34,920 nt of DNA, from contig JANXQL010000011.1 in the NCBI GenBank assembly GCA_025356815.1, positions 1 to 34,920 on the forward strand. The letters run 5' to 3'. This DNA comes from Pseudomonadota bacterium (lineage in GTDB: Bacteria; Pseudomonadota; Gammaproteobacteria; Steroidobacterales; Steroidobacteraceae). Positions 2,972 through 29,006 of this stretch are shown here, one piece after another. Each line of letters opens with the position of its first letter. Positions within the stretch are counted from its first letter, which is position 1. A program made the translations under genes and the position numbers. The notes beneath the pieces are model-generated. The model was not told the DNA's origin. It saw only the letters and a list, made by a program, of their open reading frames with translations, and did no database searches.

Positions 2972-3115
2972 GCGACTCTCCGTGCGCGGCGTGGGTGCCG
3001 TTTGGGCCAAGTGTAGCTAAAGCGTCAGGCACTGCGACGCATCGATGCGCATTCAGATCAGCGCGCGTTCGCGTTGCGGGTCGCGGCGTCGACGGCGGGC
3101 GGCCCAGGCCCTGGA

Positions 3116-4900
3116 TCAACCGGCCGCGAGCGCCGCGGCGAACTGCCTGGCCCGGTCGCCGACGATCAGGTGCCGGATCGTCGGGGATACCGCAAGCACG
3201 CCCATCACGCCGGCGAGGCGGGCGGCGGCCTCGTCGAAACGGCTCGCGTCGGCAAGTTCGATGCGCAGGCGGGTCAGGGCCACCGCATCGAGCGAGCGCA
3301 GGTTGGCGCGGCCGCCGAGGGCGACCAGCAGCGGGCCTGCCGCCTCGCGGACCCAGGCCTCGATCGGTTCCGCGGACGGCGGGGTGCCGGGCGCCTGCAT
3401 CGGGCGCGGCATCGGCGCCGGTGCCGGTGCCGGCGTCGGCTGCGACGCGGCCGCGGCGCCAGTGGAGCGCAGGTAGTCCTCCATGTCCGACTTCAGGTTC
3501 TCGGACAAGGGGCCGAACACCGCCTGGACGCCGTCGCCGACCGTCATCACGCCGCTGGCCCCGAGCGCCTTCAGGCGCGCGGTGTTCACCGCCGCCTGGT
3601 CGCGCACGACCACGCGCAGTCGGGTGATGCAGGCGTCTAGGCTCGCGATGTTGGCGCGGCCGCCGAAAGCCGCCACCAGCGCCGCGGCGCGCTCATTGCC
3701 GACGCCGCCCACGGCCGCCACGGTGCTCTCGTCCTCGCGCCCGGGTGTCTTCAGGTCCAGCCAGCCGATCACGACGCGGAACAGGCCGTAGTAGACGGCC
3801 GCGTAGACCGGGCCGAGCACCAGCACCAGCCACCAGTTCTGCGCGTTCTTGCCCAGCACGTTGAAGATCAGGAAGTCGATGCCGCCCTGCGAGAACGTGA
3901 AGCCCATGTGCATGTTCAGGGTGTTGGCGACGAACTGCGTGGACGCGGCCAGCATCGCGTGCAGCACGTACAGCGCCGGCGCCACGAACAGGAACGCGAA
4001 CTCGATCGGCTCGGTGATGCCGGTCAGGAACGAGGTCAGCGCGGCCGAGATCATGATGCCGCCGACGGCGACGCGGTTCTCGGGGCGGGCGCTGTGCCAG
4101 ATCGCGATCGCGGCGGCCGGCAGGCCGAACATCTTGAACAGGAAGGCGCCTGCGAGTACGCCCGCCGTGCGGTCGCCGGCGAAGAAGCGATTGATGTCGC
4201 CGTGGACGACGTGGCCGGCGGCGTCGGTGTAGGTGCCCATCTCGAAGAAGAACGGCACGTTCCAGATATGGTGCAGGCCGAACGGGATCAGCAGCCGCTC
4301 GACGAAGCCGTACAGCGTCGCCGCCGTGCGCGGATCCGCGACCGCGGCCCAGTGCGAGAAGGTCTTGATCTGGTCCTGGATCGGCGGCCAGACCAGCGAC
4401 AGCACGACCCCGAGCCCGATCGCGGCGATGGCCGTGATGATCGGCACGAAGCGCTTGCCGGCGAAGAAGCCGAGATAGGGAGGCAGCGAGATGCGGTAGT
4501 AGCGCTGGAACATGGCCGCGGCGAGGCCGCCGGCGAGAATGCCGCCGAACACGCCGGTCTGCATGGTCTTAAGTCCCATCACCGTGTCCGGCGTCACGTG
4601 CAGCACGCCTGCCATGACGCCCATCGTCGTCGTCAGCACCAGATAGCCGATGCTGGCGGAGATCGCCGCGACACCGTCGTTCTCGGTGAAGCCGACCGCG
4701 ACGCCGATCGCGAAGATCAGCGGCAGGTTGCCGAAGATGACGTCGCCGGAGTTCTTCATCAGCGCCGAGACGATCTCCGGCAGCCATTCGAACTTGGCGG
4801 CGCCGATGCCGAGCAGCAGGCCGGCGACCGGCAGCACGGCCACCGGCAGCATCAGTGCCTTGCCGATCTTCTGCAGGAACGTGAACGCGTTCTTGAACAT
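3116..4900 (-). CDS. Glucose-family PTS permease EIICB with a second, Cys-less EIIB domain
   Basis: This 594-residue inner-membrane protein takes up and phosphorylates a hexose, probably glucose; N-acetylglucosamine is the alternative. Residues 1 to about 390 form the multi-span EIIC domain, with [18 protein letters not shown] and the sugar-site motif [15 protein letters not shown]. The first EIIB domain follows, with the phosphorylated Cys424 in [13 protein letters not shown]. After an Ala/Pro-rich linker (residues about 475-510) comes a second EIIB-like domain in which the matching segment reads [14 protein letters not shown]; Val540 sits where Cys should be, with a one-residue insertion. 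That copy cannot carry phosphate. The gene lies 9 nt after the EIIA-HPr-EI gene and an AGGA precedes its ATG, so the two form an operon. The symbol could be ptsG or nagE; the sequence does not decide. Confidence 0.9.
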
Positions 4901-4909
4901 GGAGCGATC

Positions 4910-13590: not shown

Positions 13591-14943
13591 TCAGAAGACG
13601 AAGTTGGCTCCGATCGTCACCGCGTTGCCGGACTTCACCGTGCGCGGATCCCAGCCGCCGTTGGCGGTGTTGCTCGCCATGCTCAGCGGCGCAGGCCCCT
13701 GGCGCCCGAACATCACCCGGCCGATGCCGCCGTAGACCTCGATGTGCTTGTCGAGTTCGGGGAGCTTACGGTAGATGCCCAGGTTCACGAAGGTCGCCGA
13801 GTTGCTCTGGCCCCATTCGGTCGGCGTGTGCACGTACGCCTTGTTCATGCGCACGCCGGCGAGGGTGAAGGTCCACAGCTTGCGCGTGTAGCCAACGCCC
13901 AGCAGCGCATCCCACTCGATCGCGTGGTGGGCGATGTTGCCGGTGGAGTAGTTGAATCCGGCCTGGTCCCAGAAGCACGCGCTGGTGACGAGCGCGCCGT
14001 TGACGACCTTCGGGGCGACGGGGCCGTAGTCGCACTGCTGCTCCTGTCCCGACCATTCGCTGCGCTTGAGGCCGTAGGTCAGCTTCCAGGTCGGGTTGTA
14101 CCAGTGGGTACCCTGGATGACCAGCAGGTCCTCGGCAGGCGTGCGGTAGGACGCGGTCAGGCCGTTGGTGTTGCCCTGCGCGCCGTAGAAAGCGCCCTTG
14201 GAGAACGAGTTCTGCAGGCCCCCGGTCGAGTCCTGGAAGATCACCTCGACGAGGTTCTTCTCGTTGGAGTACTGCACGAAGACTTCGAGCGCCTGCGGCT
14301 TCGGCGGCGACGCGACGCTTGAGGTCGCGTTCAGCGGCATGCGGGTCTTGGCCCGCGAGGCGGTGACCTCGAAGCGGATCTTGCCGAGCTCGATCTCGTA
14401 CTCGCGCGAACCGAGTCGCACGGATTCGGGGAAGTCGCCGTAGCCGGCACCGGACTCGGCCCACCACACTGACAGGCCCATCGGATACGCGAACGAATCG
14501 GAGCGCGTCCAGGAGCGGGACGCCATCTTGCCGGCCTGCAGCGAGCCGTACTTCGGGTGGGAGATGCCACCGTACAGGTCGATCAGGTAGTTGCCGTAGA
14601 TGTCCGGTCCGTTGTTGCGCTCGCGGCCGCTCGCCTTGCCTTCGACCTTGATCGCGTTGTCGAACTCGTGCGACAGGCCGAGCGTCACCTGGACCAGACC
14701 GAGGTTGCTCGAGCGGGTGCGGGTGAGGCCGCCTTGGTTGACCATCGGATCCGGCGGGTTGAGCACGCCGCGTGGGTCGAACGAGGAGGGGTTGACGAGC
14801 CCTGCGGAGCAGCTGTCGCAGACGGAGAACTCCTCCTTGGCGAAGCCCAGCACCTCGAGCGGGCCGTACTTTTCGGCCAGCGCCGGCGCGGCGACCAGGA
14901 CCGTCGCCACCGCCAGCGATCGACTGAAGCAGAGGATGTTCAC
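13591..14943 (-). CDS. Outer-membrane porin, probably for glucan oligosaccharides
   Basis: The 450-residue protein has a signal peptide (NILCFSRSLAVATVLVAAPALA) and a body of alternating amphipathic strands (SNLGLVQVTLGLSHEFDN, KIRFEVTASRAK, QALEVFVQYSN). It ends in GANFVF, the C-terminal Phe used for outer-membrane assembly. The start is the GTG at 14943: GGGAG lies 6 nt upstream and the signal peptide follows directly, whereas the longer frame upstream is Arg-rich with no export signal. Position between GH17-like and GH81 genes implies uptake of beta-glucan oligosaccharides. There is no TonB-dependent receptor in the window, so this porin may replace one. The mature N-terminus has a CDSC pair, unusual for a porin. 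The exact porin family was not determined. Confidence 0.82.
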   Translation of the reverse strand: MNILCFSRSLAVATVLVAAPALAEKYGPLEVLGFAKEEFSVCDSCSAGLVNPSSFDPRGVLNPPDPMVNQGGLTRTRSSNLGLVQVTLGLSHEFDNAIKVEGKASGRERNNGPDIYGNYLIDLYGGISHPKYGSLQAGKMASRSWTRSDSFAYPMGLSVWWAESGAGYGDFPESVRLGSREYEIELGKIRFEVTASRAKTRMPLNATSSVASPPKPQALEVFVQYSNEKNLVEVIFQDSTGGLQNSFSKGAFYGAQGNTNGLTASYRTPAEDLLVIQGTHWYNPTWKLTYGLKRSEWSGQEQQCDYGPVAPKVVNGALVTSACFWDQAGFNYSTGNIAHHAIEWDALLGVGYTRKLWTFTLAGVRMNKAYVHTPTEWGQSNSATFVNLGIYRKLPELDKHIEVYGGIGRVMFGRQGPAPLSMASNTANGGWDPRTVKSGNAVTIGANFVF

Positions 14944-15031
14944 AGCGGTCTCCCGAAGCAACAAATAGAGGCAGTCTGAGGTTCGATGGCGGCCGGTCGC
15001 CCACGCGACCGGCCCACGAGCTGCGCGCCGA

Positions 15032-16753
15032 TCAAGGCGAGTAGCCCGCGCCCGGATAGGTCTCGGGGCTGTTGCAGGCCGGTGCGGCCGGGTAGGTGAC
15101 TCCCGAGTAGCTGAAGCTCGAGTACACGTCGCACAGGGCATAGCGCGGCGGCTGCGTCCGGTCCGTGCTCCACAGGCCCCAGCCGTCGTCGGCGCCCTTC
15201 CAAGTCTCGTCGAACGCCTCGAAATAGAAGATCGTGACCGGGCCGCCGGCCGATCCCTGCCAGGCCGGGTAGGCCTGCGGCGCGCCCGCGACCGAGCCGT
15301 ACATCAGGTCTACGTACCACTTGGCGTTCATCGGCAGCGCGGCATAGCCTTCGATCTGCGAGTTGAAGTTGGTCTGGCGGGCCTTCCAGCCGGTCTCGCC
15401 GACGACGATCGGCAGCGTCGCACCGACGCTGACCGACACGCCGTCCGAATTTCGGTACATGTGGCGCGCGACCTGCGCGTAGGTCGACTTCAGGCTGCCG
15501 TCGTCGACGTTCGGCGTACCGTTCAGCGCCGTCTGCATCATCGCCTGAGCGCGCGCGGGGCCGGCAGCGGAGGACAGCTGCTGCCAGTTCCAACGAGTCG
15601 GATTGCTCATCGGATAGGAGTGGATCGAGACGAAATCGCTCGTCGCGAGCACGGCGTCGGAACTTGCGTCCGTGTAGTAGCTGTAGTCGTCGTCGGCCGT
15701 GACCGGCTGCGTCACCTGGCTGCGGACCGTCTGGATGTAGCTCACCAGGCAATTGACCGGCATGTAGGCGCGGAAGAACGAGGTCTCATTGCCGACGCTG
15801 ACGGTGGCGACGATGCCCGAGTACTGAGCGGCCAGGCGGATACCCGTGCTGATCTGCGCGGTATTGGCCGAGTTGCTGTCGCAGGCCGCCTGATGGGGCG
15901 TATCGATGCCGAAGATGTAGACGCCGAGCTGGTAGCGCATGTCGGGGAAGTTCGCCGCCGACAGTCGCAGGATCTGCTCGCTGGCGGGGTCCGAACCGAA
16001 CAGCCGCAGCAGCCGGTAGCCTGCCGCATGCAGCAGCGCGAGGTCCTCGTTCACCTGTGCGTCGGTCGGCGCCTCGGCGCCCGGGCCGCCGGCACGATAC
16101 GGGCTGTAGTTGATCGCCTTGCCGGTCGTGTACACCGCCGGCAGCGGGCGCAGGGTGAACGGCGCGCACACGATCGCGACGTTGGTGACGTCGGTGGTGG
16201 CGGTACCCGACCCGTTGGTCACGCCGCAATTCTCGCCAGCGGGTGGCGTCTGCACCGTCACCAGGTAGCTCGAGCCCGGCGCGATCGCCGTGGAGAAGGT
16301 GAAACTGCCGTTCGCGGCGGTCGCGAGGGTGTCGCCGGCATTGTTCTGCAGCACGACCGCGCCGGTGAGGCCGGAGACGGTGCCGCCGATGCGAACGTAG
16401 GACGCGCACGTCACATGCACGCCGTGAACGTTGCCGGTGGCGGTGCCGGAAGCCGCAGCGACGCTGCAGACCTGCCCGTTAGGCTGGTGCTTGATCGTGA
16501 CCGAGTAATTGGCGCCGTTGGCGATCTGCAACGGGAAGCTGAACGATCCGTTGGATCCGATGCTCAGGTCGTCCTTGGCGTTGTTCTGCAGCACCACGGT
16601 GCCGGTCAGGCCGGCGACATCACCGCCGATGCTGACGTACCCCGGCTGGTCGTGCCAGGTCTGGCCGCATGCCGCGAGGGCGAGCGTTGCGGTGCAGACG
16701 GCGGCTCGGCCCAGGCAGCGGAGTGCCGAAGTGACGGACGGATTGGTATTCAC
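15032..16753 (-). CDS. GH17-like lipoprotein with two N-terminal repeat modules
   Basis: With the GTG start at 16753 (AGAGG about 10 nt upstream) the 573-residue protein has a lipoprotein signal with lipobox LAAC, so it is membrane-anchored. Two similar modules of about 80 residues follow (VSIGGDVAGLTGTVVLQNN and VRIGGTVSGLTGAVVLQNN), each a small beta-sandwich. From about residue 240 comes a GH17-like barrel: YRLLRLFGSD, acid/base candidate Glu323 in VSVGNETS, nucleophile candidate Glu453 in VVGETGWK, and FYFEAFDETWKG. It should hydrolyse or transglycosylate beta-1,3-glucan at the cell surface or in the periplasm. It is first in an operon with porin and GH81, preceded by a TTGACA promoter and a LacI-type operator. 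GH17-like is firm; specificity is inferred. Confidence 0.87.
   Translation of the reverse strand: MNTNPSVTSALRCLGRAAVCTATLALAACGQTWHDQPGYVSIGGDVAGLTGTVVLQNNAKDDLSIGSNGSFSFPLQIANGANYSVTIKHQPNGQVCSVAAASGTATGNVHGVHVTCASYVRIGGTVSGLTGAVVLQNNAGDTLATAANGSFTFSTAIAPGSSYLVTVQTPPAGENCGVTNGSGTATTDVTNVAIVCAPFTLRPLPAVYTTGKAINYSPYRAGGPGAEAPTDAQVNEDLALLHAAGYRLLRLFGSDPASEQILRLSAANFPDMRYQLGVYIFGIDTPHQAACDSNSANTAQISTGIRLAAQYSGIVATVSVGNETSFFRAYMPVNCLVSYIQTVRSQVTQPVTADDDYSYYTDASSDAVLATSDFVSIHSYPMSNPTRWNWQQLSSAAGPARAQAMMQTALNGTPNVDDGSLKSTYAQVARHMYRNSDGVSVSVGATLPIVVGETGWKARQTNFNSQIEGYAALPMNAKWYVDLMYGSVAGAPQAYPAWQGSAGGPVTIFYFEAFDETWKGADDGWGLWSTDRTQPPRYALCDVYSSFSYSGVTYPAAPACNSPETYPGAGYSP
16160..16636 (-). repeat. Two tandem 80-residue modules in the GH17-like lipoprotein
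   Basis: Module 1 (16636 down to about 16397) and module 2 (16396 down to about 16160) share IGGxVxGLTGxVVLQNN, then NGSFxF, then a Tyr-x-Val-Thr strand, and end at a Cys. They probably present the enzyme away from the membrane or bind glucan. Confidence 0.8.
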
Positions 16754-16986
16754 CGGTGTACTGCCTCTGGAAAGATGAAGCGGGTCGCGCTCGACGCGTA
16801 ACGGCCGCAGGTCGCGCGGCGTCGGAGGGAGGGTGGAGTTGCAGCCGCGCACCGATGCTCGGCTGCAAGGCGTCGTGAGATCGAAAGGACCCATTCGCGT
16901 CTGCCCCCCCTCGTCGACGCGCCGCACTGCGGCCGCTGCCTACACGCGCCTACCTGCGACATGGGTCGCGGCGGGCTTGAATCTTT

Positions 16987-17031: not shown

Positions 17032-17150
17032 TCGCGTTTGCAGTTCTAACGCGATAAGATCGTTTGTGCACTGCGTTTGCTGCGCCGCGGCGCAAAGCGC
17101 CGACAGCCGGCGTGACGTCGCCGGTCACCGTCACTGGGAGCGACTACCGA

Positions 17151-18197
17151 ATGCGTCGATCAGACCTCGAACGCCGCGTGACGGCGGCGGCGGCGGGTTC
17201 TGCCGTGACGCTGGAGATGGTGGCGCGCGAGGCCGGCGTCTCGCCGAGCACCGTCTCGCGAATCCTCAATGGCACCGCCAAGGTTCGTGATGCGAAGGTG
17301 CGCGCGGTCAACGCGGCCATCTCCAAGCTGCAGTTCATGCCCGATCCCGTGGCGCGCTCGCTGGCCGGGGGCAAGTCCATGAGCATCGGGGTAATGATCC
17401 AGACCCTTGACAGCCCATTCTTCGGCGGTGTGGTCGCGGCGCTCGAAAAGGGCCTGATGCGGGCCAATTATTCGGGTCTGTTCGTCAGCGGCCACTGGCG
17501 TGAGAACGACGAGCGACGCTGCATCGGCCACCTGCTGAGCCGGCGCGTCGAAGGCATCATCCTGGTCACCAGCTGCCTGCCCGATGCCGAGATCCTCCAC
17601 CTGTCGCGCAGCGTCCCGGTAGTGCTGACCGGCCGCTCGCTGGTCGGCGAAAACGTCTACTCCGTCGACGTCGACAGCACGCAGGGCGCGCGCCTGGCGA
17701 CCGACTATCTGATCGGGCAGGGGCACCGCCGGGTCGCATTCATCGCGGGCCCTGTCGACCATCCTGACGCGATCCAGCGCCTGGCGGGCTACAAGGCCTC
17801 GCTCGCGACCCACAAGCTGCCTTTCGCGAAGAAACTGGTGGCGGTCGGCGACTACACCGACTTCGGCGGACAAGCCGCGATGAACCAGCTGCTCGATGGC
17901 GGCGAGCAGTTCACCGCGGTGTTCGCCGCGAACGACCAGACCGCGTACGGCGCGATGCTCGCCCTCTACCGCCGCGGCGTGAAGGTTCCCAACGACGTCT
18001 CGGTGGTCGGCTATGACGACCTGCTGACCTCGGCTTTCACCATTCCTCCGCTGACCACGGTGCATCGCTCCATCGAGGGCATCGGCGAGTGTGCAGCGCA
18101 GGCGATGCTCGATCTGATCGACCGGCGCGCGCCGGTGGCCAAGGTGTCCCCCGCAACGCTCGCGGTACGCGAGTCGGCGCGTCCACTGCGCAGTTGA
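17151..18197 (+). CDS. LacI-family transcriptional regulator
   Basis: The 348-residue protein has an N-terminal helix-turn-helix and hinge (VTLEMVAREAGVSPSTVSRILNG, residues about 19-41). A periplasmic-binding-protein-like sugar domain follows (SIGVMIQTLDSPFFGGVVAALE, VEGIILVTS, VDSTQGARLATDYL, HRRVAFIAGP, VFAANDQTAYGAMLAL, VSVVGYDDL). The start is ATG 17151 (GGGAG 10 nt upstream); a TTG 87 nt earlier is open but unlikely. It lies beside a GAAAGCGCTT palindrome and is the only regulator in the glucan locus, so I infer that it represses the three units carrying that palindrome and is released by a glucan-derived sugar. About 18 extra residues precede the usual HTH start. Confidence 0.95.
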   Translation: MRRSDLERRVTAAAAGSAVTLEMVAREAGVSPSTVSRILNGTAKVRDAKVRAVNAAISKLQFMPDPVARSLAGGKSMSIGVMIQTLDSPFFGGVVAALEKGLMRANYSGLFVSGHWRENDERRCIGHLLSRRVEGIILVTSCLPDAEILHLSRSVPVVLTGRSLVGENVYSVDVDSTQGARLATDYLIGQGHRRVAFIAGPVDHPDAIQRLAGYKASLATHKLPFAKKLVAVGDYTDFGGQAAMNQLLDGGEQFTAVFAANDQTAYGAMLALYRRGVKVPNDVSVVGYDDLLTSAFTIPPLTTVHRSIEGIGECAAQAMLDLIDRRAPVAKVSPATLAVRESARPLRS

Positions 18198-19124: not shown

Positions 19125-19305
19125 GCGGCGGCTTTGAGGGCCCTGAGAGTTGGAATTCCGGCCGCGGCGGCTGGCGAGGGAGTGCGCGTCGGCACCGTAG
19201 CATCGCAGCGTCGCTCGCTCCAACGCCGCAGTGCGCTGGGTGGCGCAGGGCGGCGATGGTGGTCGCGGTTGACGCGTTGCAGCAACGGCCGTCTCGCGCG
19301 GCGCA

Positions 19306-19336
19306 TTGACACAGGCGCGGATCGCTGTGCTAGATT
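19306..19336 (+). promoter_or_regulatory. Promoter with 19-bp spacer and internal dyad (lipoprotein-GH1-GH16-transporter operon)
   Basis: TTGACA (19306-19311) and TAGATT (19331-19336, preceded by TG as in extended -10 boxes) are separated by 19 bp. CACAG (19310-19314) and CTGTG (19325-19329) form an inverted repeat within that spacer. The same layout occurs at 26416. The rest of the 19125-19457 gap contains the upstream region of the hydrolase and a leader of about 115 nt. Confidence 0.7.
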
Positions 19337-19342
19337 TGATTT

Positions 19343-19354
19343 GAAAGCGCTTTC
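19343..19354. promoter_or_regulatory. LacI-family operator (perfect palindrome)
   Basis: GAAAGCGCTTTC is a perfect 12-bp palindrome that begins 6 bp after the predicted -10, so a bound repressor would block initiation. It matches the site at 26454 exactly and the site at 16987 closely. Confidence 0.85.
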
Positions 19355-19457
19355 TTCAACGCGCTCCACAAATCGCCCGCGCACGCGTCGGACCGACGCC
19401 TGCAGCGGAACGCGAGCATCGATTCTGGGGGCCTCAATGTCCGGTAAGGAGCAAGCA

Positions 19458-20342
19458 ATGACGACGTCAAGAGTGTCGACAGACTGGCGTGGCGCGCTAT
19501 TGCCGGGCTTGGTCGGCGCAGCGGCACTCGCCCTCGCGGCCTGCGGCGGCGGCGGCGTTGAAGGGGTCGCCGGCGGTGGCAACAACGGCGGTGGCGGCGG
19601 CGGTGGTGGTGGCGGGACGACAGTGACCCCAACGGCCTACGCGCTGTTCGCGTCGAACTACGTGGCGTACAGCTCGCAGACCAACGGTGCCTTCCTGCAC
19701 TCGGTGCAGGGCGGCGACGTGTACGCGTTCTTCGCCGGCAACGTCAACTACGGCTGCTACTCGTTCACTCAGGCCAATATGGACTCGACGCAGTTCTATG
19801 GCATCCAGGCGCAGGCGGGCTCGAACGGCGGTTCCGCCGGCGCCAACTGCCAGGTGACCGGGGCGGTCGCCCCGACCGCGGCCTCCGACGTCGCGGGCGT
19901 GACGATCAAGGCGCCGGGCACCAACTCGCCGACCGCGACGAGTGTCGCGCCGCTGGACATCAGTCAGGCGACAGCGCTGCTCGTGCAGATGGGCAACATC
20001 TATACGCAGGGTGACGTGCCCGGCGCCAATGGCGGCAACGCCAAGGTGTTCACGATCCTGCTCAACAACGACACGTCGGCGGCGCAGGACAAGTCAGCCC
20101 AGACGGCGCTGTGCGCGGTCGATCAGACGCTGGCAACGATCGGTCGTGGCGCGGCGGCACCGTTGGGTATCCTGAATTACGTGATTCCGCTGAGCTCCTT
20201 CACCTGCTCGAAGGGCTCGGTCGCGACGCTGCAGACCACCGGCGTCACGTCGGTCACGGTGCAGTACTCGGGCGACAAGAATCACATCAACGTCGCTGAT
20301 CTCGACGTGATCGCCATCGGCTACGTCGGCTTCACGAAATAA
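19458..20342 (+). CDS. Secreted lipoprotein of unknown function, glucan-locus associated
   Basis: The 294-residue protein starts at ATG 19458, with AAGGAG 6 nt upstream, which rules out the longer frame. A lipoprotein signal ends in lipobox LAAC. A glycine-rich linker (residues about 33-54) leads to a domain of about 235 residues rich in Thr, Ser, Asn and aromatic residues (YALFASNYVAYSS, VYAFFAGNVNYGCYSF, LLVQMGNIYTQG, KVFTILLNND, VTVQYSGDKNHINVADLDVIAIGYVGF). The pattern suggests a beta-sandwich like a carbohydrate-binding module, but I do not recognise a family. Being first in the operon with GH1, GH16 and the GPH-GH17 fusion, and under the shared operator, it is a candidate surface glucan-binding protein. 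Confidence 0.8.
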   Translation: MTTSRVSTDWRGALLPGLVGAAALALAACGGGGVEGVAGGGNNGGGGGGGGGGTTVTPTAYALFASNYVAYSSQTNGAFLHSVQGGDVYAFFAGNVNYGCYSFTQANMDSTQFYGIQAQAGSNGGSAGANCQVTGAVAPTAASDVAGVTIKAPGTNSPTATSVAPLDISQATALLVQMGNIYTQGDVPGANGGNAKVFTILLNNDTSAAQDKSAQTALCAVDQTLATIGRGAAAPLGILNYVIPLSSFTCSKGSVATLQTTGVTSVTVQYSGDKNHINVADLDVIAIGYVGFTK

Positions 20343-20343
20343 C

Positions 20344-20380
20344 GTCCGTTGCCACGGACCCACGCCGACATCGGCATGGG
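20344..20380 (+). promoter_or_regulatory. Two adjacent hairpins after the lipoprotein stop codon
   Basis: GTCCGT (20344-20349) pairs with ACGGAC (20354-20359). Next, CCCA-c-GCCG pairs with CGGC-a-TGGG (20359-20380) around ACAT. No T-tract follows. Placed right after the first gene, these could stabilise its mRNA or partly end transcription, giving more lipoprotein than enzyme. They also bury the ATG at 20376. Confidence 0.45.
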
Positions 20381-20435
20381 TTCGCGGCCGGAGCGCCCGT
20401 CAGCGGCGCGTCTTGCGCAGGGCCTGCCGCATCCG

Positions 20436-21839
20436 ATGAACGCAGTCGATCGAATTCCGGTCATCGCCGGCGACTCCGTCGCTGCAGCGCTCGTGCGACG
20501 CTTTCCGGCGGACTTCGTCTGGGGCGTCGCGACCAGTGCGTTCCAGATCGAGGGTGCCGCGCTTGAGGACGGTCGTGGCGATTCGATCTGGGACGAGTTT
20601 TGCCGCCGCCCGGGTGCGATCAAGGACGCCAGCAACGGCGATGTTGCCTGCGACCACTACCATCGGATGGAGGAGGACATCGCGCTCGTCGCGAGCCTCA
20701 ATGTCAGCGCCTACCGGTTCTCCATTTCCTGGCCGCGCGTGCAGCCGCTGGGATCGGGCGCATGGAACGAGAAGGGCTTCGACTTCTACGAACGACTCGT
20801 GGATGCATTGCTTCGCCACGGGATCGCGCCGCACGTCACGCTCTACCACTGGGACCTGCCGCAGGCCCTGCAGGAGGGCGGCGGCTGGCTGAACCGCGGG
20901 ACCGTAGACCGGTTCGTGGAGTACGCCGCGGAAGTCGCGCGGCGGCTCGGTGACCGGGTGGCATCGATTGCCACCCACAATGAGCCCTGGGTCGTCTCGG
21001 TGCTTGGCCACGAAGCGGGCATCTTCGCCCCCGGCCTCAAGAGCCAGCGGGCGGCCATGCAGGTCTCCCATCACCTGCTGCTGAGCCACGGCCTCGCTGT
21101 GCGGGCGTTGCGCGCGCAGCGCGCCGCCTTGCCGCTGGGCATCGTGCTGAACCAGTCGCCGATCCACGCGGCGACCGACTCCGCCGAGGACCTGGCGAAG
21201 GCGCGCCTCGACGACGGCCTGACGATCCGCTGGTACATGGACGCGCTGCTGCATGGGCGCTACCCGGATGACGTGCTCGCCTTCCTCGGGGCGGATGCAC
21301 CGACCGTCGCTGGCGGCGACATGGAGTCGATCCGTCAGCCGCTCGACTTCCTCGGCATCAACTACTACACGCGCAATGTCTCCGGCACCGGCGCGCCGCG
21401 CGATCCGGTGGCGGCCGGCACGGAGGTGACCGACATGGGCTGGGAAGTGTTCCCGGCCGGCCTGTCGGAGTTGCTCAACCGGCTGCACGTGGACTATGCC
21501 CTGCCGCCGATCTACATCATGGAGAACGGCGCGGCCTATCCCGATCGCGTGGTCGACGGCGAGGTGGCGGATCCGGACCGCATCCGCTACCTGAGCTCGC
21601 ACATCGCCGCGATGGCGGATGCCGTGGCCAGCGGCGTGAAGGTATACGGCTATTTCGTCTGGAGTCTGCTCGACAACTTCGAGTGGGCGGACGGTTACCA
21701 GAAGCGATTCGGAATCATCTACGTTGACTATCCGACGCAGCGGCGCATACCGAAGCACAGTGCGCTGTGGTACCGCCGGCTGTGCGCGGAGCATCGCCTG
21801 CGCAACACTTCGACGGCGCGAGTGCCAGACGGCCCATGA
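20436..21839 (+). CDS. GH1 beta-glucosidase (cytoplasmic)
   Basis: From ATG 20436 the protein has 467 residues, normal for GH1. Motifs occur in the expected order: FVWGVATSAFQIEGA at the N-terminus, YRFSISWPRVQP, TLYHWDLPQAL, acid/base Glu183 in THNEPW, GINYYTRN, nucleophile Glu363 in IYIMENGAA (Met where Thr is usual) and the aglycone-side VWSLLDNFEWADGYQKRFG. No signal peptide is present, so it should split imported beta-glucosides such as laminaribiose into glucose. The start is uncertain: no strong ribosome-binding site precedes 20436, and the earlier TTG (20349) and ATG (20376) lie inside hairpins. It lies 93 bp after the lipoprotein gene and 70 bp before GH16. Confidence 0.95.
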   Translation: MNAVDRIPVIAGDSVAAALVRRFPADFVWGVATSAFQIEGAALEDGRGDSIWDEFCRRPGAIKDASNGDVACDHYHRMEEDIALVASLNVSAYRFSISWPRVQPLGSGAWNEKGFDFYERLVDALLRHGIAPHVTLYHWDLPQALQEGGGWLNRGTVDRFVEYAAEVARRLGDRVASIATHNEPWVVSVLGHEAGIFAPGLKSQRAAMQVSHHLLLSHGLAVRALRAQRAALPLGIVLNQSPIHAATDSAEDLAKARLDDGLTIRWYMDALLHGRYPDDVLAFLGADAPTVAGGDMESIRQPLDFLGINYYTRNVSGTGAPRDPVAAGTEVTDMGWEVFPAGLSELLNRLHVDYALPPIYIMENGAAYPDRVVDGEVADPDRIRYLSSHIAAMADAVASGVKVYGYFVWSLLDNFEWADGYQKRFGIIYVDYPTQRRIPKHSALWYRRLCAEHRLRNTSTARVPDGP

Positions 21840-21909
21840 CCATCGTCGCCGACGCTCCCGGCAGTCGTGAACGGATCCGTGGCCACGCAGGCCTGGCGGA
21901 GGGATGCCG

Positions 21910-22866
21910 ATGACACGCAAGACCCGATCGCGCAAGTCTGGGTCTGCCCCGGAGCACAACCCGGATCCCTCGCAGTGGACGCTCGTCTGGAACGACGAGT
22001 TCGAGGGCACCGAGCTTGACCGTAGCAAGTGGGACTTCGACCTCGGCAACGGGTTCTTCGACTACCGCACGCACCAGTGGGTCCCGGGGTGGGGCAACGA
22101 GGAGTTGCAGTACTACACCGACAACGCCGACAACGTCCAGGTGCGAGATAGCCTGCTGTACATTCGCGCGTTGCGTGAGCCGCTGCATGGCTGTGGCTAT
22201 ACCTCGGCGCGGCTCAAGACGCGACGTCGCGACGGGACGGCGCTGTTCACGAAGCTCTACGGGCGCTTCGAGTTCCGCGCCCGCGTGCCGCACGGCAAGG
22301 GCCTGTGGCCGGCACTGTGGATGCTGCCGCAGGACGAGACCTACGGCACCTGGGCCGCATCGGGCGAGATCGACGTCATGGAGATCGTCGGCGAGCGTCC
22401 GGGCCAGTACCTCGGCTCGATTCACTTCGGCGGCTCGTTCCCGAAGCGCGAGCTGGTGACCCACGTCCACGAGTTCCCAGACGGCGGATCGGTGGCGGAC
22501 TTCCACGTGTACACGGTCGAGTGGGAGCCTGGAGAGCTGCGCTGGCTCATCGACGGGGTGTTGTGGGCGACGCAGCGCTTCTGGTGGTGCAGCAGCCGTA
22601 CACGCGACGGCAAGGGGGTCGCCGTGCGCTCCGCCAAGGGCCTCAATCCGTGGCCCGCGCCCTTCGACCAGCCGTTCTACCTGCTGATGAACGTGGCCGT
22701 GGGCGGCAATTTCCCGGGCGTGCCGAATCCGGCAACCCGCTTTCCAGCCGAACTCGTGGTCGACTACGTCCGCGTATACGACCGCGTCGGCGGCTACGCG
22801 GCACCGAAGCCACGCGCCGCAGGGCGCTTCCCGTATCAGAAGAAGAATCAGACGAAGAAGCGCTGA
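21910..22866 (+). CDS. GH16 endo-beta-1,3-glucanase (laminarinase) without a signal peptide
   Basis: The 318-residue protein has the GH16 jelly-roll from about residue 22 (WTLVWNDEFEGTELDRSKW). WVPGWGNEELQYYT and GRFEFRARVPHGKGLWPALWML follow, and the catalytic ExDxxE is Glu153, Asp155 and Glu158 in SGEIDVMEIVGE. The end is YLLMNVAVGGNFPG and VVDYVRVY plus a basic tail. ATG 21910 is preferred because GGAGGG sits 6 nt upstream, whereas the in-frame ATG at 21904 touches it. The N-terminus is polar and basic (MTRKTRSRKSG) with no hydrophobic segment, which is unusual for a laminarinase and implies a cytoplasmic enzyme or non-classical export. It would cut imported beta-1,3-gluco-oligosaccharides. 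Confidence 0.93.
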   Translation: MTRKTRSRKSGSAPEHNPDPSQWTLVWNDEFEGTELDRSKWDFDLGNGFFDYRTHQWVPGWGNEELQYYTDNADNVQVRDSLLYIRALREPLHGCGYTSARLKTRRRDGTALFTKLYGRFEFRARVPHGKGLWPALWMLPQDETYGTWAASGEIDVMEIVGERPGQYLGSIHFGGSFPKRELVTHVHEFPDGGSVADFHVYTVEWEPGELRWLIDGVLWATQRFWWCSSRTRDGKGVAVRSAKGLNPWPAPFDQPFYLLMNVAVGGNFPGVPNPATRFPAELVVDYVRVYDRVGGYAAPKPRAAGRFPYQKKNQTKKR

Positions 22867-22892: not shown

Positions 22893-25349
22893 ATGAACGA
22901 CAACACCGGCAAGCTGACCGTCACCGAGAAAATCGGCTACGGCTTCGGCGACATGGCTTCGAACCTCTTCTGGCAGATGTTCTCGATCTACATCCTCAAG
23001 TTCTACACCGACGTGTTCCTGCTGGGCGCGGCGGCGGTGGGCACGATGATGCTCGTGACGCGCTTGCTCGACGCGTTCATCGACCCGCTGATCGGCACGC
23101 TCGCAGACCGCACCAACACCCGCTGGGGGCACTTCCGGCCCTACCTGCTGTGGATGGCGATTCCGATGGCGGTGAGCGCCGTCCTCACCTTTACGACGCC
23201 GAGCTTCGGCGGAACCGCGCGCCTCGTGTACGCGTACGTGACGCTGATCCTGATGATGATCGCGTACTCGGGCATCAACATCCCGTACTCCGCGCTGCTC
23301 GGCGTGCTCACGCCGGACAGCAAGGAGCGCACCAGCGCCTCCTCTTACCGCTTCGTGATGGCCTTTCTGCCGATCTTCGTCATCGCGTTCACGGCCCCGC
23401 GGCTGGTGGCCTACTTCGGTGGGTCGGACACCGCGCCCTTCGGCTGGCAGATGACGATGGTGGTCTATTCGCTCATCGCGGTGGTGCTGTTCTTCGTGAC
23501 CTTCGCGATGACCAAGGAGCGCGTCCAGCCGCCCGCGTCGCAGCATGCGGCGCTCGGCAAGGACGTCGGCAACCTGTTCCGCAATGTCCCGTGGGTGGTG
23601 CTCTGCATCGTCGGCATCGCGGCACTGACCTACGGCAACATCCGCAATGGCGTGATGGTCTACTACTTCGACTATGTCGTCACCGACGGCAAGGAAGGGT
23701 TCAAGTGGGTCCTGTCGGCCGGCGCCGCGGCCTTCATGATCGGCGTCATGGCGACCGCGCCACTGTCGAAGCGCTTCGGTAAGCGCCGCTTCTACATGTT
23801 CTCGATGGCGATCTCGGCGGTGCTGTCGGTAGCCTTCTACTTCGTGCCGACGAACAAGGTGTGGTTGGTCGTGGGGGCCAACACCCTGATCAGCCTCTTT
23901 ACCGCGCCGACCGCGCCGCTCGTCTGGGCAATGTACGCCGACACGGCGGACTACTCGGAATGGAAGTGGGGCCGTCGTGCCACCGGGCTGATCTTCTCGG
24001 CCGCCTCCTTCGCGCAAAAGCTCGGCTGGGCGATCGGCGGTGCCGGGACGGCATGGCTGCTCAGCTACTTTGGCTACGTTGCGAACGTCCCCCAGAGCGC
24101 GCACACGATCAAGGGCATGATGCTGATGACGAGCGTCATCCCCGCAGTCGCGGCCGTGATCGCGGTGGCGGCGCTGTGGTTCTACAAACTCGATGACTCG
24201 GTCGTCGAGACGATGGGGGCGGAGCTCGCGGCCCGACGCAAGGCCTCCTCCGACGGTGAGACGGTTGCAGTCGACATGCCGGCACCACCCGGGCTGCCGA
24301 GTGTTGGATCGGTTCTGGAGGGTGTCATGGGCGAGAGCAAGCAACCGGCTGCGGCCGCAGAGCAGGCCGCGCATCGTGCGGTGGGTGTAGGTTCGGCGCC
24401 GGGCGTGACGATGACGCGCTCGGGCCCGGTGGATGCGGCCGGAGGCGGCTGGACGCCGGGACATCCCGATGCCCGCCCGCTCGGAGTCACGGCGGAACCG
24501 CCGCTGCTGACGTCTGAGCAGGAGGCTGCGCTACGCATTGAGTTCGCGGCTGTCCTCAACGCCGGCGTGCACGGCCTGTGTTTCAGTCCCTATCTCGAGG
24601 GTCAGGCGCCGGGCTCGCTCGTCAGCGAGCAGCAGATCCGCGAGCGACTCGCCGTCATTCAGCCGTACACGCGCTGGGTGCGGACCTTCTCCTGCACCGA
24701 GGGCCATGAGCAGACGCCGGAACTCGCGCACCGCGCGGGTCTCAAGACCCTCGTCGGTGCGTGGCTCGGCACCGACCGTGCGATCAACGAACGCGAGATC
24801 GAGGGCGCGATCGCGGTTGCCCGCGCAGGCCATGCCGACCTGCTGGCGGTGGGCAACGAAGTGCTCCTGCGCGGTGACCTCACCGAGGACGAACTGCTCG
24901 CGTACATGAAGCGGGTGAAGGACGCGGTGCCGCACATTGAGGTGGGTTACGTCGACGCCTACTTCCTCTTCGAAAAGCACCCGCGCGTGACGGCGGCCTG
25001 CGACGTGGTGCTGACGAACTGCTACCCGTTCTGGGAAGGCTGCCCGCGCGACCAGGCGATCGCCTACATGCAGACCATGCACCGGCGCACCGTCGCTGCC
25101 GCTGCGGGCAAGCGGGTCATCGTGTCCGAGACCGGCTGGCCGCACACGGGCAGCGCCTTTCACGGCGCGGTGCCGTCGGTCGAAGGCGCGATGCGCTACT
25201 TCATCGACACCTGCCGCTGGGCGCAGCAGGATGGCGTCGAGGTCTTCTACTTCGCGGCGTTCGACGAGGCCTGGAAGGTGGGCGCCGAGGGCGATGTCGG
25301 CGCGTACTGGGGGCTGTGGGACAAGGACGGCAGGCCCAAGTACCTGTGA
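22893..25349 (+). CDS. GPH-family sugar:cation symporter fused to a GH17-like glycosidase
   Basis: One uninterrupted 818-residue frame, preceded by GAGGGGG, joins two proteins. Residues 1 to about 430 are a 12-span GPH (MelB-type) symporter: GYGFGDMASNLFW, the cation-site region DAFIDPLIGTLADRTNTRWG, HFRPYLLW and late MYADTADYSEWKWGRR. A linker of about 100 residues, rich in Ala, Gly and Pro, follows. From about residue 535 comes a GH17-like barrel with acid/base candidate Glu656 (LAVGNEVLL), nucleophile candidate Glu746 (VSETGWPHTG) and FYFAAFDEAWK. GPH carriers have both ends inside, so the glycosidase should face the cytoplasm and act on sugars as they enter. A strong internal ribosome-binding site could also yield a free GH17-like form. 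A 4-nt overlap couples it to the next GH17-like gene. Confidence 0.9.
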   Translation: MNDNTGKLTVTEKIGYGFGDMASNLFWQMFSIYILKFYTDVFLLGAAAVGTMMLVTRLLDAFIDPLIGTLADRTNTRWGHFRPYLLWMAIPMAVSAVLTFTTPSFGGTARLVYAYVTLILMMIAYSGINIPYSALLGVLTPDSKERTSASSYRFVMAFLPIFVIAFTAPRLVAYFGGSDTAPFGWQMTMVVYSLIAVVLFFVTFAMTKERVQPPASQHAALGKDVGNLFRNVPWVVLCIVGIAALTYGNIRNGVMVYYFDYVVTDGKEGFKWVLSAGAAAFMIGVMATAPLSKRFGKRRFYMFSMAISAVLSVAFYFVPTNKVWLVVGANTLISLFTAPTAPLVWAMYADTADYSEWKWGRRATGLIFSAASFAQKLGWAIGGAGTAWLLSYFGYVANVPQSAHTIKGMMLMTSVIPAVAAVIAVAALWFYKLDDSVVETMGAELAARRKASSDGETVAVDMPAPPGLPSVGSVLEGVMGESKQPAAAAEQAAHRAVGVGSAPGVTMTRSGPVDAAGGGWTPGHPDARPLGVTAEPPLLTSEQEAALRIEFAAVLNAGVHGLCFSPYLEGQAPGSLVSEQQIRERLAVIQPYTRWVRTFSCTEGHEQTPELAHRAGLKTLVGAWLGTDRAINEREIEGAIAVARAGHADLLAVGNEVLLRGDLTEDELLAYMKRVKDAVPHIEVGYVDAYFLFEKHPRVTAACDVVLTNCYPFWEGCPRDQAIAYMQTMHRRTVAAAAGKRVIVSETGWPHTGSAFHGAVPSVEGAMRYFIDTCRWAQQDGVEVFYFAAFDEAWKVGAEGDVGAYWGLWDKDGRPKYL
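24317..24329 (+). promoter_or_regulatory. Internal ribosome-binding site and ATG within the fusion gene
   Basis: GGAGGG (24317-24322) lies 4 nt before an in-frame ATG (24327) in the linker of the symporter-GH17 fusion. Initiation here would give a separate 340-residue protein starting MGESKQ that contains the whole GH17-like domain. It may be a relic of two once-separate genes or a working second start. Confidence 0.5.
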
Positions 25350-26308
25350 GTACCGAGATCCCCCCGAAGCTCGAGCTGCCCGCCGGCAACGCGATCTGCT
25401 ACTCCGGGTACCGGCGCGGCCAGAGCCCGGGCGACAAGCTCTACCCGACGCTCGCGGAAATCCGCGAGGACCTGTTGATCCTGCAGAAGCACTGGACACT
25501 GCTGCGGCTGTACGACTGCAGTGCGCACGCCGATCGCGTGCTCGAGGTCATCCGCCGCGACGGCCTCGACTTCAAGGTCATGCTCGGCGCCTATATCGGC
25601 CCCGAGATGAACAATTTCGGCTGCCCGTGGGGTGCGACCTACAGCGAGGAGCAGCTCGAGGCGAGCATCGCCGAGAACGACGCGGAGGTCGGCCGCCTGG
25701 TCACGCTTGCCGGGCGCTACCCGGACATCATCTTCTCGCTCGCGGTCGGCAACGAGGCGACCGTCGACTGGAGCGATCACTTCGTGCCCGTGCCGCGGAT
25801 GATCGAGCTGGTGCGGCGCGTCAAGGCCTCCGCTGCCCAGCCGGTGACGTTCTGCGAGAACTACGTGCCGTGGCAGTACAAGCTCGGTGAACTGGTCGAG
25901 GAACTCGACTTCATCTCGCTGCATACCTACCCGGTGTGGGAATACAAGCACATCCACGAGGCGATCCACTACACCAAGGACAACTACCACAGCGTCGCGC
26001 GGCTCTATCCGCAGAAGCCGGTGGTGATCAGCGAGGCGGGCTGGGCGACGAACTCCAACGGCCGGGGCATCCAGCCGCACAACACCTCGGAAGAGCTGCA
26101 GGAGATCTACTACGCCGATCTGATGGAGTGGACGCGGGCAGAGGGCATCCTGACGTTCGTGTTCGAGGCCTTCGACGAGCCCTGGAAGGGGTCTCCGGAT
26201 CCGATGGAGCCGGAGAAGCACTGGGGTCTGTTCACGGTCGACCGGTTTCCCAAGCGCGTCATGCAATCGCTCTACCCGGAGCTTTTGCCGCGTCTGAGGG
26301 CCGGGTAG
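25346..26308 (+). CDS. GH17-like glycosidase/transglycosylase (cytoplasmic)
   Basis: The 320-residue protein starts at a GTG whose last bases form the TGA of the fusion gene (GTGA, 4-nt overlap), typical of translational coupling. It has GH17-like features: LLRLYDCSAHADRVLEVI, KVMLGAYIGPE, acid/base candidate Glu137 in LAVGNEATVDW, DFISLHTYPVWEYK, nucleophile candidate Glu230 in VVISEAGWATNS and FVFEAFDEPWKG. No signal peptide is visible. It is a distant paralogue of the fusion's C-terminal domain and of the lipoprotein at 15032. It may trim imported beta-1,3-glucan chains or transfer glucosyl units between them. It ends the operon; the next gene has its own promoter. Confidence 0.88.
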   Translation: MSTEIPPKLELPAGNAICYSGYRRGQSPGDKLYPTLAEIREDLLILQKHWTLLRLYDCSAHADRVLEVIRRDGLDFKVMLGAYIGPEMNNFGCPWGATYSEEQLEASIAENDAEVGRLVTLAGRYPDIIFSLAVGNEATVDWSDHFVPVPRMIELVRRVKASAAQPVTFCENYVPWQYKLGELVEELDFISLHTYPVWEYKHIHEAIHYTKDNYHSVARLYPQKPVVISEAGWATNSNGRGIQPHNTSEELQEIYYADLMEWTRAEGILTFVFEAFDEPWKGSPDPMEPEKHWGLFTVDRFPKRVMQSLYPELLPRLRAG

Positions 26309-26415
26309 GGCGAGCGGGCCCGGGAAGCGAGCCTTGGGTCCGCGCCACGGCGCCTGGGCGCCTCGGAACCCTAGGAATTGCGGCTCTGCAGCAAAGTCGC
26401 CTCGCGCAAGTTTGA

Positions 26416-26446
26416 TTGACACAGGCAGTAATTGCTGTGATAGATT
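26416..26446 (+). promoter_or_regulatory. Promoter with 19-bp spacer and internal dyad (repeat lipoprotein)
   Basis: TTGACA (26416-26421) and TAGATT (26441-26446) are 19 bp apart. CACAG (26420-26424) and CTGTG (26435-26439) form the same N10 inverted repeat as at 19306. The first 11 bases, TTGACACAGGC, are identical at the two loci, while the dyad loops differ. Confidence 0.7.
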
Positions 26447-26453
26447 CATTTTT

Positions 26454-26465
26454 GAAAGCGCTTTC
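26454..26465. promoter_or_regulatory. LacI-family operator (perfect palindrome)
   Basis: GAAAGCGCTTTC lies 7 bp after the predicted -10. Identity with the site at 19343 extends outward to TTGAAAGCGCTTTCTT. Confidence 0.85.
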
Positions 26466-26543
26466 TTGGAGGGGGACTCCTATGCCAGCAGCATCGCGGG
26501 TAAACCTCGCCGTCGCATCGCACACCGCATCGGGAGGCATCGT

Positions 26544-29006
26544 ATGAATGTCGTTAGGCAGTTGGCCCTGCTGGCACTAGCCGTCTGCTCGGGTCTCGTA
26601 CTCGCAGGCTGTCAGCCCTCCACCAAGACCGCGAGCGCGCAGCCGACGCTGACCTCGGTGGCCTTCGCCCCGGCGTCCGCCACCGTGACGATCACCGGCA
26701 CCCAGCCGCTGGTGCTCACGGGCACGTTCAGCGATTCCTCGACGCTCGATTTGACCTCAGCGGCGGCTTTCAGCTCCGACAACCTCGCGGTAGCGACCGT
26801 CAGTTCCTTCGGTATCGTCCGTGCCATCAGCTCGGCAAGCACGTCGGCGTCCGGCGTCGCGCACATCACCGGCCTCGTCAACGGAAAGGCGGCGACGGCG
26901 ACGATCACGGTGCCGCCACCTGCGCTGGTGTCAATCGGCATCGCCCCGAAGGGCGTGCCGCTGTTCGTCGGCGGATCGCAGCCGCTGTCGGTACGTGCCA
27001 TCTACGACCAGGGTTCCAGCGCCGCGTTGACCTCCGGTGTCACGTTCGTGTCCGACCATCCGAACATCGCGACCGTCAGTGGCAGCGGCGTAGTGACCGC
27101 CGTCACGACCGGCACCGCCATCGTTACTGCGACCGACACGGTGTCGGGCCGTAGCGATACGACGATCGTCACCGTCACGGTCGCACCCGTGGCGACCCTG
27201 CTGTCGATCTCGGCGACCCCAACCTCGGTGTCGCTTGCGCCTGCGGCCACGCAGCAGCTGACCGTCAAGGGCACCTTCAGCAACGGTGCGCAGGTGCCTC
27301 TGGCGCCCGCCAACGAGACGTTCGTGTCGTCCAACCCGGCCATCGCATCCGTTGACGCGGCGGGACTTGTGACCGCGCACACCGCGGGAACGGTCAGCAT
27401 CGCTGTCACCGACACGGCCAGCGGCCTCGTCGCGAGCCCATCACCCTCGGTCACGGTCACTGCGGCTGGCTGGGCGACGATCACCTTTGATGATCTGTCG
27501 ATCACCTACGGCCTGACTGACTTCGGTGGTGTCACCTCGTCCGTCGTCGCCGATCCGACCGGCGGCAGCAACAAGGTCACGATGGTGGTCAAGCCGAGCA
27601 GCGCGCAGCCCTGGGGCGGCACTACCGTGTCTACGGTTGCCAACGCCTCGGTGCCGGTGATTCCGCTGACGGCGTCGGTCACGAAGATGACGCTGCGCGT
27701 CTACTCGCCCGGTCCCGGCATCCACGTCCGCCTGAAGGCCGAAGATGCCGCCGATCCGACCCATAGCGTCGAGACCGAGGCGCTGACGACGCTGACCAAT
27801 ACGTGGGAGACGTTGACGTTTGATTTCGCGAGCCAGGCGGCGGGCACCGCCGCGCTGAACCCGGCATTCACCTTCGACCGGTTGTCGCTGTTCTTCGACT
27901 TCAACACCGTGCCGGGCGCGACCGAAACCTTCTACTTCGACGACCTCGCGCTGGGCGCGGCGGCCGGCGGCGGTGGTGGCGGCGCATGGAGCCCGATCAC
28001 CTTCGACAGCGCCTCGATCACCTACACGTTGACCGACTTCGGCGGGGTCACCTCGTCGGTGGTCACCGATCCGACGGGCGGCAGCAACAAGGTCACGATG
28101 GTCCAGAAGCCGGCCTCGGCCCAGCCGTGGGGCGGCACGACGGTGTCTACCGGTGCGAACGCTTCGGTGCCGACCATCCCACTCTCGGCGAGTGTCACCA
28201 CCATGACGGTGCGGGTCTATTCGCCTGGCCCCGGGATCCATGTGCGGCTGAAGGCCGAGGACGCCGCGGATCCGACGCATAGCGTTGAGACCGAGGCGCT
28301 GACGACGCTGACGAACGCGTGGGAGACGCTGACCTTCAACTTCGCGAACCAGGCGGCGGGCACGGCGGCGCTGAACCCGGCCTTCACGTTCAACAAGCTG
28401 TCGTTGTTCTTCGACTTCCTGACTGTGCCGGGCGCGACCGAGACGTTCTACTTTGACGACATCACGCTCGGCGCTGCGGCCGGCGGTGGCGGTGGCGGCG
28501 GCGGGGGTGGCGCGGCCTGGGCTGCGATCACCTTCGACAACGCGGCGCTGACCTACACGACGTCCGACTTCGGCGGCGTGACGACCACGATCGTCACGGA
28601 CCCGGCGGGCGGCAGCAACAAGGTCGGCATGCTCATGAAGCCGAATTCGGCCGCGCCCTGGGGTGGCGTGACGGTGTCCACCGGCGCGAACTTCTCGGTG
28701 CCGACGATCCCGTTGACGGCGAGCCGCGCGACGATGACCGTGCGCGTCTACTCGGCAGGGCCCGGCTTTCATATCCGGCTGAAGGCCGAGGATGCCGCGG
28801 ATCCGACCCATTCGGTGGAGACGGAGGCGCTCACGACGCTCACGAACACGTGGGAGACACTGAGCTTCAACTTCCTGAACCAGGCGGCCGGTACCGCGCA
28901 GCTCAATCCTGCGTTTACCTTCAACAAGACGTCGTTGTTCTTCGACTTCAACACCACGCCTGCGGCGACGGAAACGTTCTACTTCGACGACATCTCGTTC
29001 CCATGA
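26544..29006 (+). CDS. Lipoprotein with Ig-like (Big2) domains and three tandem sugar-binding-like repeats
   Basis: The 820-residue protein starts at ATG 26544, with GGGAGG 6 nt upstream, and has lipobox LAGC. Residues about 35-310 hold three bacterial Ig-like (Big2-type) domains, marked by repeats such as SSDNLAVATVSSFGIV, SDHPNIATVSGSGVVTA and SSNPAIASVDAAGLVTA. Residues 313-820 are three near-identical repeats of about 160 residues, each running from ITFD...TDFGGV to TETFYFDD and joined by polyglycine linkers. Each repeat has a beta-sandwich-like pattern with conserved Trp and Asp (PWGG, RLKAEDAADPTHSVETEAL). No enzyme motif is visible. With its LacI-type operator, it is probably a surface glucan-binding protein that holds the polymer for GH81 and GH17. 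The binding role is inferred. Confidence 0.88.
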   Translation: MNVVRQLALLALAVCSGLVLAGCQPSTKTASAQPTLTSVAFAPASATVTITGTQPLVLTGTFSDSSTLDLTSAAAFSSDNLAVATVSSFGIVRAISSASTSASGVAHITGLVNGKAATATITVPPPALVSIGIAPKGVPLFVGGSQPLSVRAIYDQGSSAALTSGVTFVSDHPNIATVSGSGVVTAVTTGTAIVTATDTVSGRSDTTIVTVTVAPVATLLSISATPTSVSLAPAATQQLTVKGTFSNGAQVPLAPANETFVSSNPAIASVDAAGLVTAHTAGTVSIAVTDTASGLVASPSPSVTVTAAGWATITFDDLSITYGLTDFGGVTSSVVADPTGGSNKVTMVVKPSSAQPWGGTTVSTVANASVPVIPLTASVTKMTLRVYSPGPGIHVRLKAEDAADPTHSVETEALTTLTNTWETLTFDFASQAAGTAALNPAFTFDRLSLFFDFNTVPGATETFYFDDLALGAAAGGGGGGAWSPITFDSASITYTLTDFGGVTSSVVTDPTGGSNKVTMVQKPASAQPWGGTTVSTGANASVPTIPLSASVTTMTVRVYSPGPGIHVRLKAEDAADPTHSVETEALTTLTNAWETLTFNFANQAAGTAALNPAFTFNKLSLFFDFLTVPGATETFYFDDITLGAAAGGGGGGGGGGAAWAAITFDNAALTYTTSDFGGVTTTIVTDPAGGSNKVGMLMKPNSAAPWGGVTVSTGANFSVPTIPLTASRATMTVRVYSAGPGFHIRLKAEDAADPTHSVETEALTTLTNTWETLSFNFLNQAAGTAQLNPAFTFNKTSLFFDFNTTPAATETFYFDDISFP
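27480..29003 (+). repeat. Three tandem repeats of about 516-531 bp
   Basis: Units begin at 27480, 27996 and 28527, each at ATCACCTTYGA. Protein identity between the units is very high, including a shared block of about 30 residues from HVRLKAEDAADP onward. Units 1 and 2 are closest; unit 3 differs more at its start. The spacers encode 6 to 10 glycines. The arrangement suggests recent duplication and possible copy-number change by recombination. Confidence 0.92.

Follow-up and report, generated by a model that had tools for sequence, protein, structure and literature searches.

The fused gene and its surroundings

The window analysed here, a stretch of 34,920 nucleotides of contig JANXQL010000011.1, carries at 22893-25349 (+ strand) a single open frame running from an ATG at 22893 to a TGA at 25347-25349 and encoding 818 residues with no internal stop. 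The product consists of a GPH-type sugar carrier, a linker and a GH17 domain (GH17a). The gene is surrounded by genes for beta-1,3-glucan degradation (GH1, GH16, GH17b, GH81 and GH3), which supports the beta-glucan setting previously proposed for it. The main features are:

7849-9801, + strand: GH3 protein with a signal peptide by eye (PF00933, 245.9 bits)
11212-13578, - strand: GH81 protein with a signal peptide by eye (PF17652, 165.4 bits)
15032-16927, - strand: GH17-related protein, lipoprotein-like by eye (PF00332, 20.4 bits, under the cut-off of 28.2)
17064-18197, + strand: LacI-family protein, a possible local regulator (PF13377, PF00356)
19134-20342, + strand: conserved protein upstream of GH1, no Pfam or NCBIfam match
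20349-21839, + strand: GH1 beta-glucosidase, no signal peptide by eye (TIGR03356, 611.8 bits, cut-off 478.5)
21904-22866, + strand: GH16 protein immediately upstream of the fusion, no signal peptide by eye (PF00722, 66.3 bits)
22893-24248, + strand: GPH cation:sugar symporter domain, residues 1-452 (TIGR00792; MelB 4m64)
24249-24527, + strand: linker, residues 453-545 (P/A/G/S/T fraction 0.58), with no transmembrane-like stretch
24528-25349, + strand: GH17a domain, residues 546-818 and stop (PF00332; 4wtp; E656 and E746)
25346-26308, + strand: GH17b, a second GH17 protein, no signal peptide by eye (PF00332, 31.6 bits, cut-off 28.2)

In the fusion protein, Pfam detected MFS_2 at residues 15-435 (351.8 bits) and Glyco_hydro_17 (PF00332) at residues 741-817 (46.9 bits against a cut-off of 28.2), the best stretch of the latter corresponding to profile positions 225-302 of 306, i.e. 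the C-terminal quarter of the profile. PF13347 was matched along its whole length (1-427 of 427), as was the NCBIfam gph model TIGR00792 (1-437 of 437), which covered residues 13-448 with 419.4 bits for a cut-off of 231.35. By phmmer, MelB (4m64) was found across residues 8-443 and the beta-1,3-glucanosyltransferase 4wtp across residues 581-804. These three types of search confirm the claim, made in an earlier note on this DNA, of a complete symporter and a GH17 domain on one chain. The linker announced in that note is also present, at about 93 residues rather than about 100.

The next gene, GH17b, starts with a GTG at 25346 and overlaps the stop of the fusion by 4 nt, as the earlier note described; by eye it has no signal peptide. 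The actual start of the GH1 gene may be further in than 20349. The order GH1-GH16-fusion-GH17b was found in only 4 of the 10 fused relatives described below (L033, L035, L039 and L070). Within the retrieved stretches of L034 and L036 the order was GH16-fusion-GH17b, the short contig of L041 showed fusion-GH17b, and the arrangement differed in L037, L038 and L071. A LacI-type gene lay within the retrieved stretch of six of the ten.

Several other proteins of the window were recorded. Those encoded at 19134-20342 and 13591-15141 are conserved in the beta-glucan loci of several relatives, where the former adjoins GH1; neither has a Pfam match. Directly after GH17b, the protein at 26334-29006 contains Big_2 domains and, in its C-terminal part, three repeats judged similar by eye, and partial relatives of it occur in the loci of several relatives. 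On the - strand, positions 282-7447 encode a PTS EIIC-EIIB protein and an EIIA-HPr-EI fusion adjoining two amidohydrolases, a set which we take to resemble one for N-acetylglucosamine uptake.

The carrier half

MelB, whose helices are numbered I-XII, aligned to residues 8-439 of the fusion (E 3.4e-48). The 12 spans claimed earlier for the carrier are predicted from this full-length homology. A plain hydropathy scan (threshold 1.5) returned only 9 strong spans in the carrier half, and none in the linker. D60 and D64 of the fusion align with MelB Asp55 and Asp59, the acidic cation-site residues of helix II, and neither varies among the 11 fused ORFs. MelB Asp19 and Asp124 are replaced by N24 and N129, and these asparagines are also invariant. 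The retained helix II aspartates together with the two asparagines fit a symporter of another sugar. Cation-coupled transport by the GPH half is predicted.

According to a figure legend, a C-terminal tail helix closes the cytoplasmic ends of MelB, and the MelB C-terminus therefore lies inside. By analogy, GH17a would be located on the cytosolic side of the membrane, which supports the cytoplasmic placement that the earlier note had drawn from GPH topology.

The GH17a half: hydrolysis or transfer

Both catalytic glutamates expected for GH17a were identified, the acid/base E656 in a GNE motif and the nucleophile E746 in SETGWP, and all 11 fused ORFs retain the two of them. The closest solved relative by sequence is 4wtp (E 2.6e-35), itself a beta-1,3-glucanosyltransferase. 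This raises the question of whether GH17a, like MlGH17B and RmBgt17A according to published proposals, is a transglycosylase that rebuilds or branches oligosaccharides after their import. MlGH17B also has no signal peptide, has an MFS gene beside it and is 53% identical to the GH17 domain of a Formosa fusion. In RmBgt17A, Tyr102, Trp157 and Glu158 matter for transfer, and the Tyr102Ala replacement abolished transglycosylation (PMC11005184). The equivalents of Trp157 and Glu158 are retained in GH17a (W714 and E715), but the Tyr102 equivalent is L659. Of 33 aligned GH17a rows, 32 have Leu here and the remaining one has His. Moreover, FbGH17B, the GH17 domain of the Formosa fusion, has Met at this position while keeping Trp and Glu, and was reported to release glucose, although transfer activity that escaped detection is left possible in the same paper (PMC11005184). 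Transglycosylation is less likely in GH17a because of the leucine, and we consider a transglycosylase role improbable. GH17a is better described as a hydrolase first, with hydrolysis likelier than transfer; this reading draws on a small number of residues and on remote relatives. Thus, between the cleavage and transglycosylation offered as alternatives in the earlier note, the second has lost ground.

Fused ORFs in related genomes

Including the window, 11 distinct ORFs displayed the identical domain order in one frame, records of identical sequence being counted once (L033 = G008, L034 = G378, L035 = G033 and L041 = G292). Seven belong to the window's family (one record, L034, is titled Steroidobacteraceae) and four to MAG records titled Rubrivivax or betaproteobacteria (L036-L039). 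A contig end cuts the first residues off the fused ORF of L041. In the contig search, 15 loci were obtained, of which 8 were fused by ORF calling (L033-L039 and L041). In the order-wide search, with two candidates scored per genome, 84 of 396 genomes matched at 1e-60 and at least seven had the two parts joined in a single frame (G000, G008, G378, G033, G292, G351 and G354). In the order of the Rubrivivax-titled genome G762, 14 of 399 genomes matched and one was fused, G762 itself. In the class sample, 50 of 369 genomes matched at 1e-25; the only whole-span match was the window's own genome, no second one being found among these 369 genomes, in most of which two candidates were scored. Plasmid records matched in 435 cases, none over more than 80% of the query; a Persicobacter region from this search carried no annotation. 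Among viral contigs, 28 stretches fitted a pattern and none encoded a relative.

The 925-residue frame of G769 was listed with both parts, but the DNA of this locus (L044) has stops between two ORFs and the GH17 protein there has, by eye, its own signal peptide. It was therefore discarded as a fusion.

The two domains evolve under constraint. For the window against L033, dN/dS was about 0.08 for GPH (0.034/0.43), 0.21 for GH17a (0.135/0.63) and 0.59 for the linker (0.255/0.43). In all ten comparisons with the window, dN was lower than dS in both GPH and GH17a, and the linker had the highest dN. Both domains are under purifying selection, with a linker that drifts yet keeps the frame.

The fused frame might in principle result from an assembly error or a recent frameshift joining two ordinary neighbour genes. 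The assembly is a draft of 207 contigs, and some relatives do have two genes. However, the same joint was found in 11 distinct ORFs from different genomes, by which an assembly artefact was ruled out, and dN below dS in both halves in every comparison also speaks against such an error, which we regard as extremely improbable. The related-genome search suggested in the earlier note thus returned fused ORFs, alongside other relatives with separate genes: the two genes are not always separate in relatives, and no stop interrupts the linker. The fusion is real but patchy among relatives.

Separate genes and the history of the fusion

GPH frames of 457-497 residues with no GH17a on the chain were found in G009, G014, G006, G027, G191, G310 and G230. 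In G235, GPH and GH17a are separate genes on two contigs (L073 and L072), and in L040 a GH17a gene is followed by a separate GPH gene; thus, the fusion is not required. Two loci (L037 and L038) contain both the fusion and a free GH17 copy, with separate GH17a and GH17b genes upstream of the fused one. Finally, L045 has intact, separate GH17a and GH17b genes, whereas of its GPH gene little more than the N-terminus is left, roughly the first 55 residues across a frame break (L045:10379-10524).

Trees were built from the fetched loci only, dropping GH17a rows below 50% identity or 220 residues and GPH rows below 40% identity or 400 residues. In the GH17a tree (33 rows), the 11 fused domains grouped with 5 separate ones in a single clade (support 100/100) that excluded the other 17 proteins, all of them separate. 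An exclusive clade of the fused GH17a domains was rejected (AU p 0.0015), with G354, a long branch in this tree, among the rows. The fused or separate label requires at least four changes on the GH17a tree and at least six on the GPH tree (28 rows), which was poorly resolved in this region. We favour a single ancient fusion, followed by duplication and splitting, over several separate fusions.

Long-frame GH17 matches were considered as further MFS-GH17 fusions and rejected: 14 loci were retrieved, 12 of them with a GH17 ORF, and the order was reversed in all 12, the other two having GPH with no GH17 match. In these 12 ORFs (L168-L176 from class genomes, L178-L180 from the same family), GH17 is followed by 2 to 8 predicted spans and, in 11, preceded by one. 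The GH17 domain of this architecture is probably outside the cytoplasm.

Two further GH17 arrangements were noted. The window's own genome has an extra GH17 domain (L002, G000:C51:4800-5582) that shares 30% identity with GH17a and lies in an open frame of some 984 residues; similar frames occur in several genomes of the same genus, and this may be a GT2-GH17 beta-glucan enzyme. At L044:6484-7507, a GH17b-like protein adjoining a GPH gene has an apparent signal peptide by eye, from which the GH17b type may be exported elsewhere.

A possible second product from the linker

Besides the full fusion, the gene could also yield a free GH17a, translated from a start codon in the linker that would be a relic of a time when GH17a was a separate gene. 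In the window, the ATG of linker codon 479 is preceded, 4 nt upstream, by CTGGAGGG, a good Shine-Dalgarno-like site. Moreover, the first in-frame ATG reads MS in all ten separate GH17a genes checked, and an ATG reading MS lies inside the linker of 3 of the 11 fused ORFs (L036 at codons 484 and 519, L039 at 495 and L070 at 482); here and below, the rows are related and the counts are not independent. MS is also present at codon 441 of four ORFs (L034, L035, L038 and L071), within the conserved GPH tail; MS alone therefore says little. Strong Shine-Dalgarno-like sites were more common at linker ATG or GTG codons than at other linker codons (7/41 vs 60/838, p 0.03), but at a stricter threshold the difference was 5/41 vs 41/838 (p 0.057), and such sites are abundant throughout the linker relative to the rest (p 3.7e-7). 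The internal starts also occur at differing places across homologues. Taken together, a second product appears unlikely.

Proposed function

The reading that we favour, with a probability of roughly 0.7, is that of a cytosolic beta-1,3-glucanase tethered to an importer of laminari-oligosaccharides. The exported GH81, GH3 and GH17-like lipoprotein would shorten laminarin-like beta-1,3-glucan outside the cytoplasm, and the resulting oligosaccharides would be brought in by the GPH half through cation symport. GH17a, kept at the carrier's inner mouth by its flexible linker, would cleave them on arrival and so maintain a steep inward gradient. Cytosolic GH17b, GH16 and GH1, on which the absence of export signals was judged by eye only, would then complete the breakdown to glucose. 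Here, we infer the cytosolic side of GH17a, the substrate, the direction of transport, the order of the steps and the dominance of hydrolysis over transglycosylation. Several observations were counted against this tethered-glucanase reading: a Pfam scan of 19 window proteins gave no TonB receptor, SusC/D or SusD match, some relatives have separate genes, and the full gene order is kept in less than half of the fused relatives.

A different origin can be imagined, in which the GPH-GH17 fusion of these Steroidobacteraceae-like and betaproteobacterial genomes arose independently of the marine ones by read-through into an adjacent GH17 gene, with the old start codon kept in the linker and a carrier-bound and a free enzyme made from a single message. 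We consider this quite unlikely. If true, such repeated invention would mean that tethering a hydrolase to an importer is itself selected. For the tethered glucanase that we favour, the relatives constitute natural controls (fused, unfused, and fused with a free copy), which would allow asking whether tethering really speeds oligosaccharide use.

Comparison with known systems

MelB shares homology with the carrier half over the full domain, including the two helix II aspartates, but has no catalytic domain, and its Asp19 and Asp124 correspond to Asn in the window. Another GPH carrier, LacS, ends in a cytosolic IIA domain, which is regulatory and not a glycosidase.

The earlier note knew of no described transporter-GH17 fusion; such fusions have in fact been published. 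An MFS-GH17 fusion, FORMB_24740 (FbGH17b), was described in 2018 from Formosa strain B and as common in marine Flavobacteriia, with coupled hydrolysis and uptake put forward there as a proposal (PMC6246565). Like the window protein, it combines an N-terminal MFS carrier (12 helices predicted) and a C-terminal GH17 domain in one frame, within a laminarin locus. In both, a hydrophobic residue replaces the transglycosylase Tyr (Met there, Leu here), Trp and Glu being kept. An exo-beta-1,3-glucosidase activity on debranched laminarin, as of the Formosa type, is a putative one for GH17a. The Formosa system, compared here by description, differs in belonging to marine Flavobacteriia and in having SusD/TonB receptor genes.

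Further GH17-MFS fusions were reported from bloom Bacteroidota and Gammaproteobacteria of the North Sea, where most of the variant 1 laminarin PULs are stated to carry one (PMC10108472). Among the active MAGs, 11 of 15 bacteroidetal ones and 7 of 18 gammaproteobacterial ones (SAR92, Luminiphilus and SAR86) expressed variant 1 PULs; the wording of that report leaves unspecified which of the seven gammaproteobacterial PULs carry the fusion. By description, these fusions are of the same kind as that of the window, but they occur in marine clades, and the window locus is distinguished by its LacI regulator, GH1, GH81 and second unsecreted GH17 beside the fusion. In the laminarin PUL of Muricauda lutaonensis, the transglycosylase MlGH17B, a GH17 protein with no signal peptide, is encoded next to an MFS carrier gene (PMC11005184, PMC13188888). 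This arrangement resembles that of the window gene, but involves two separate genes and a transglycosylase that retains the Tyr.

Literature searches covering open-licence papers listed no such fusion for Steroidobacteraceae or Burkholderiales, and the parts consulted of PMC8371827, PMC6298971, PMC11573768 and PMC11345257 describe no fusion. Altogether, the fusion is of a kind already known from marine laminarin users, and the window protein is a further member, extending this transporter-glycosidase fusion into further proteobacterial groups.
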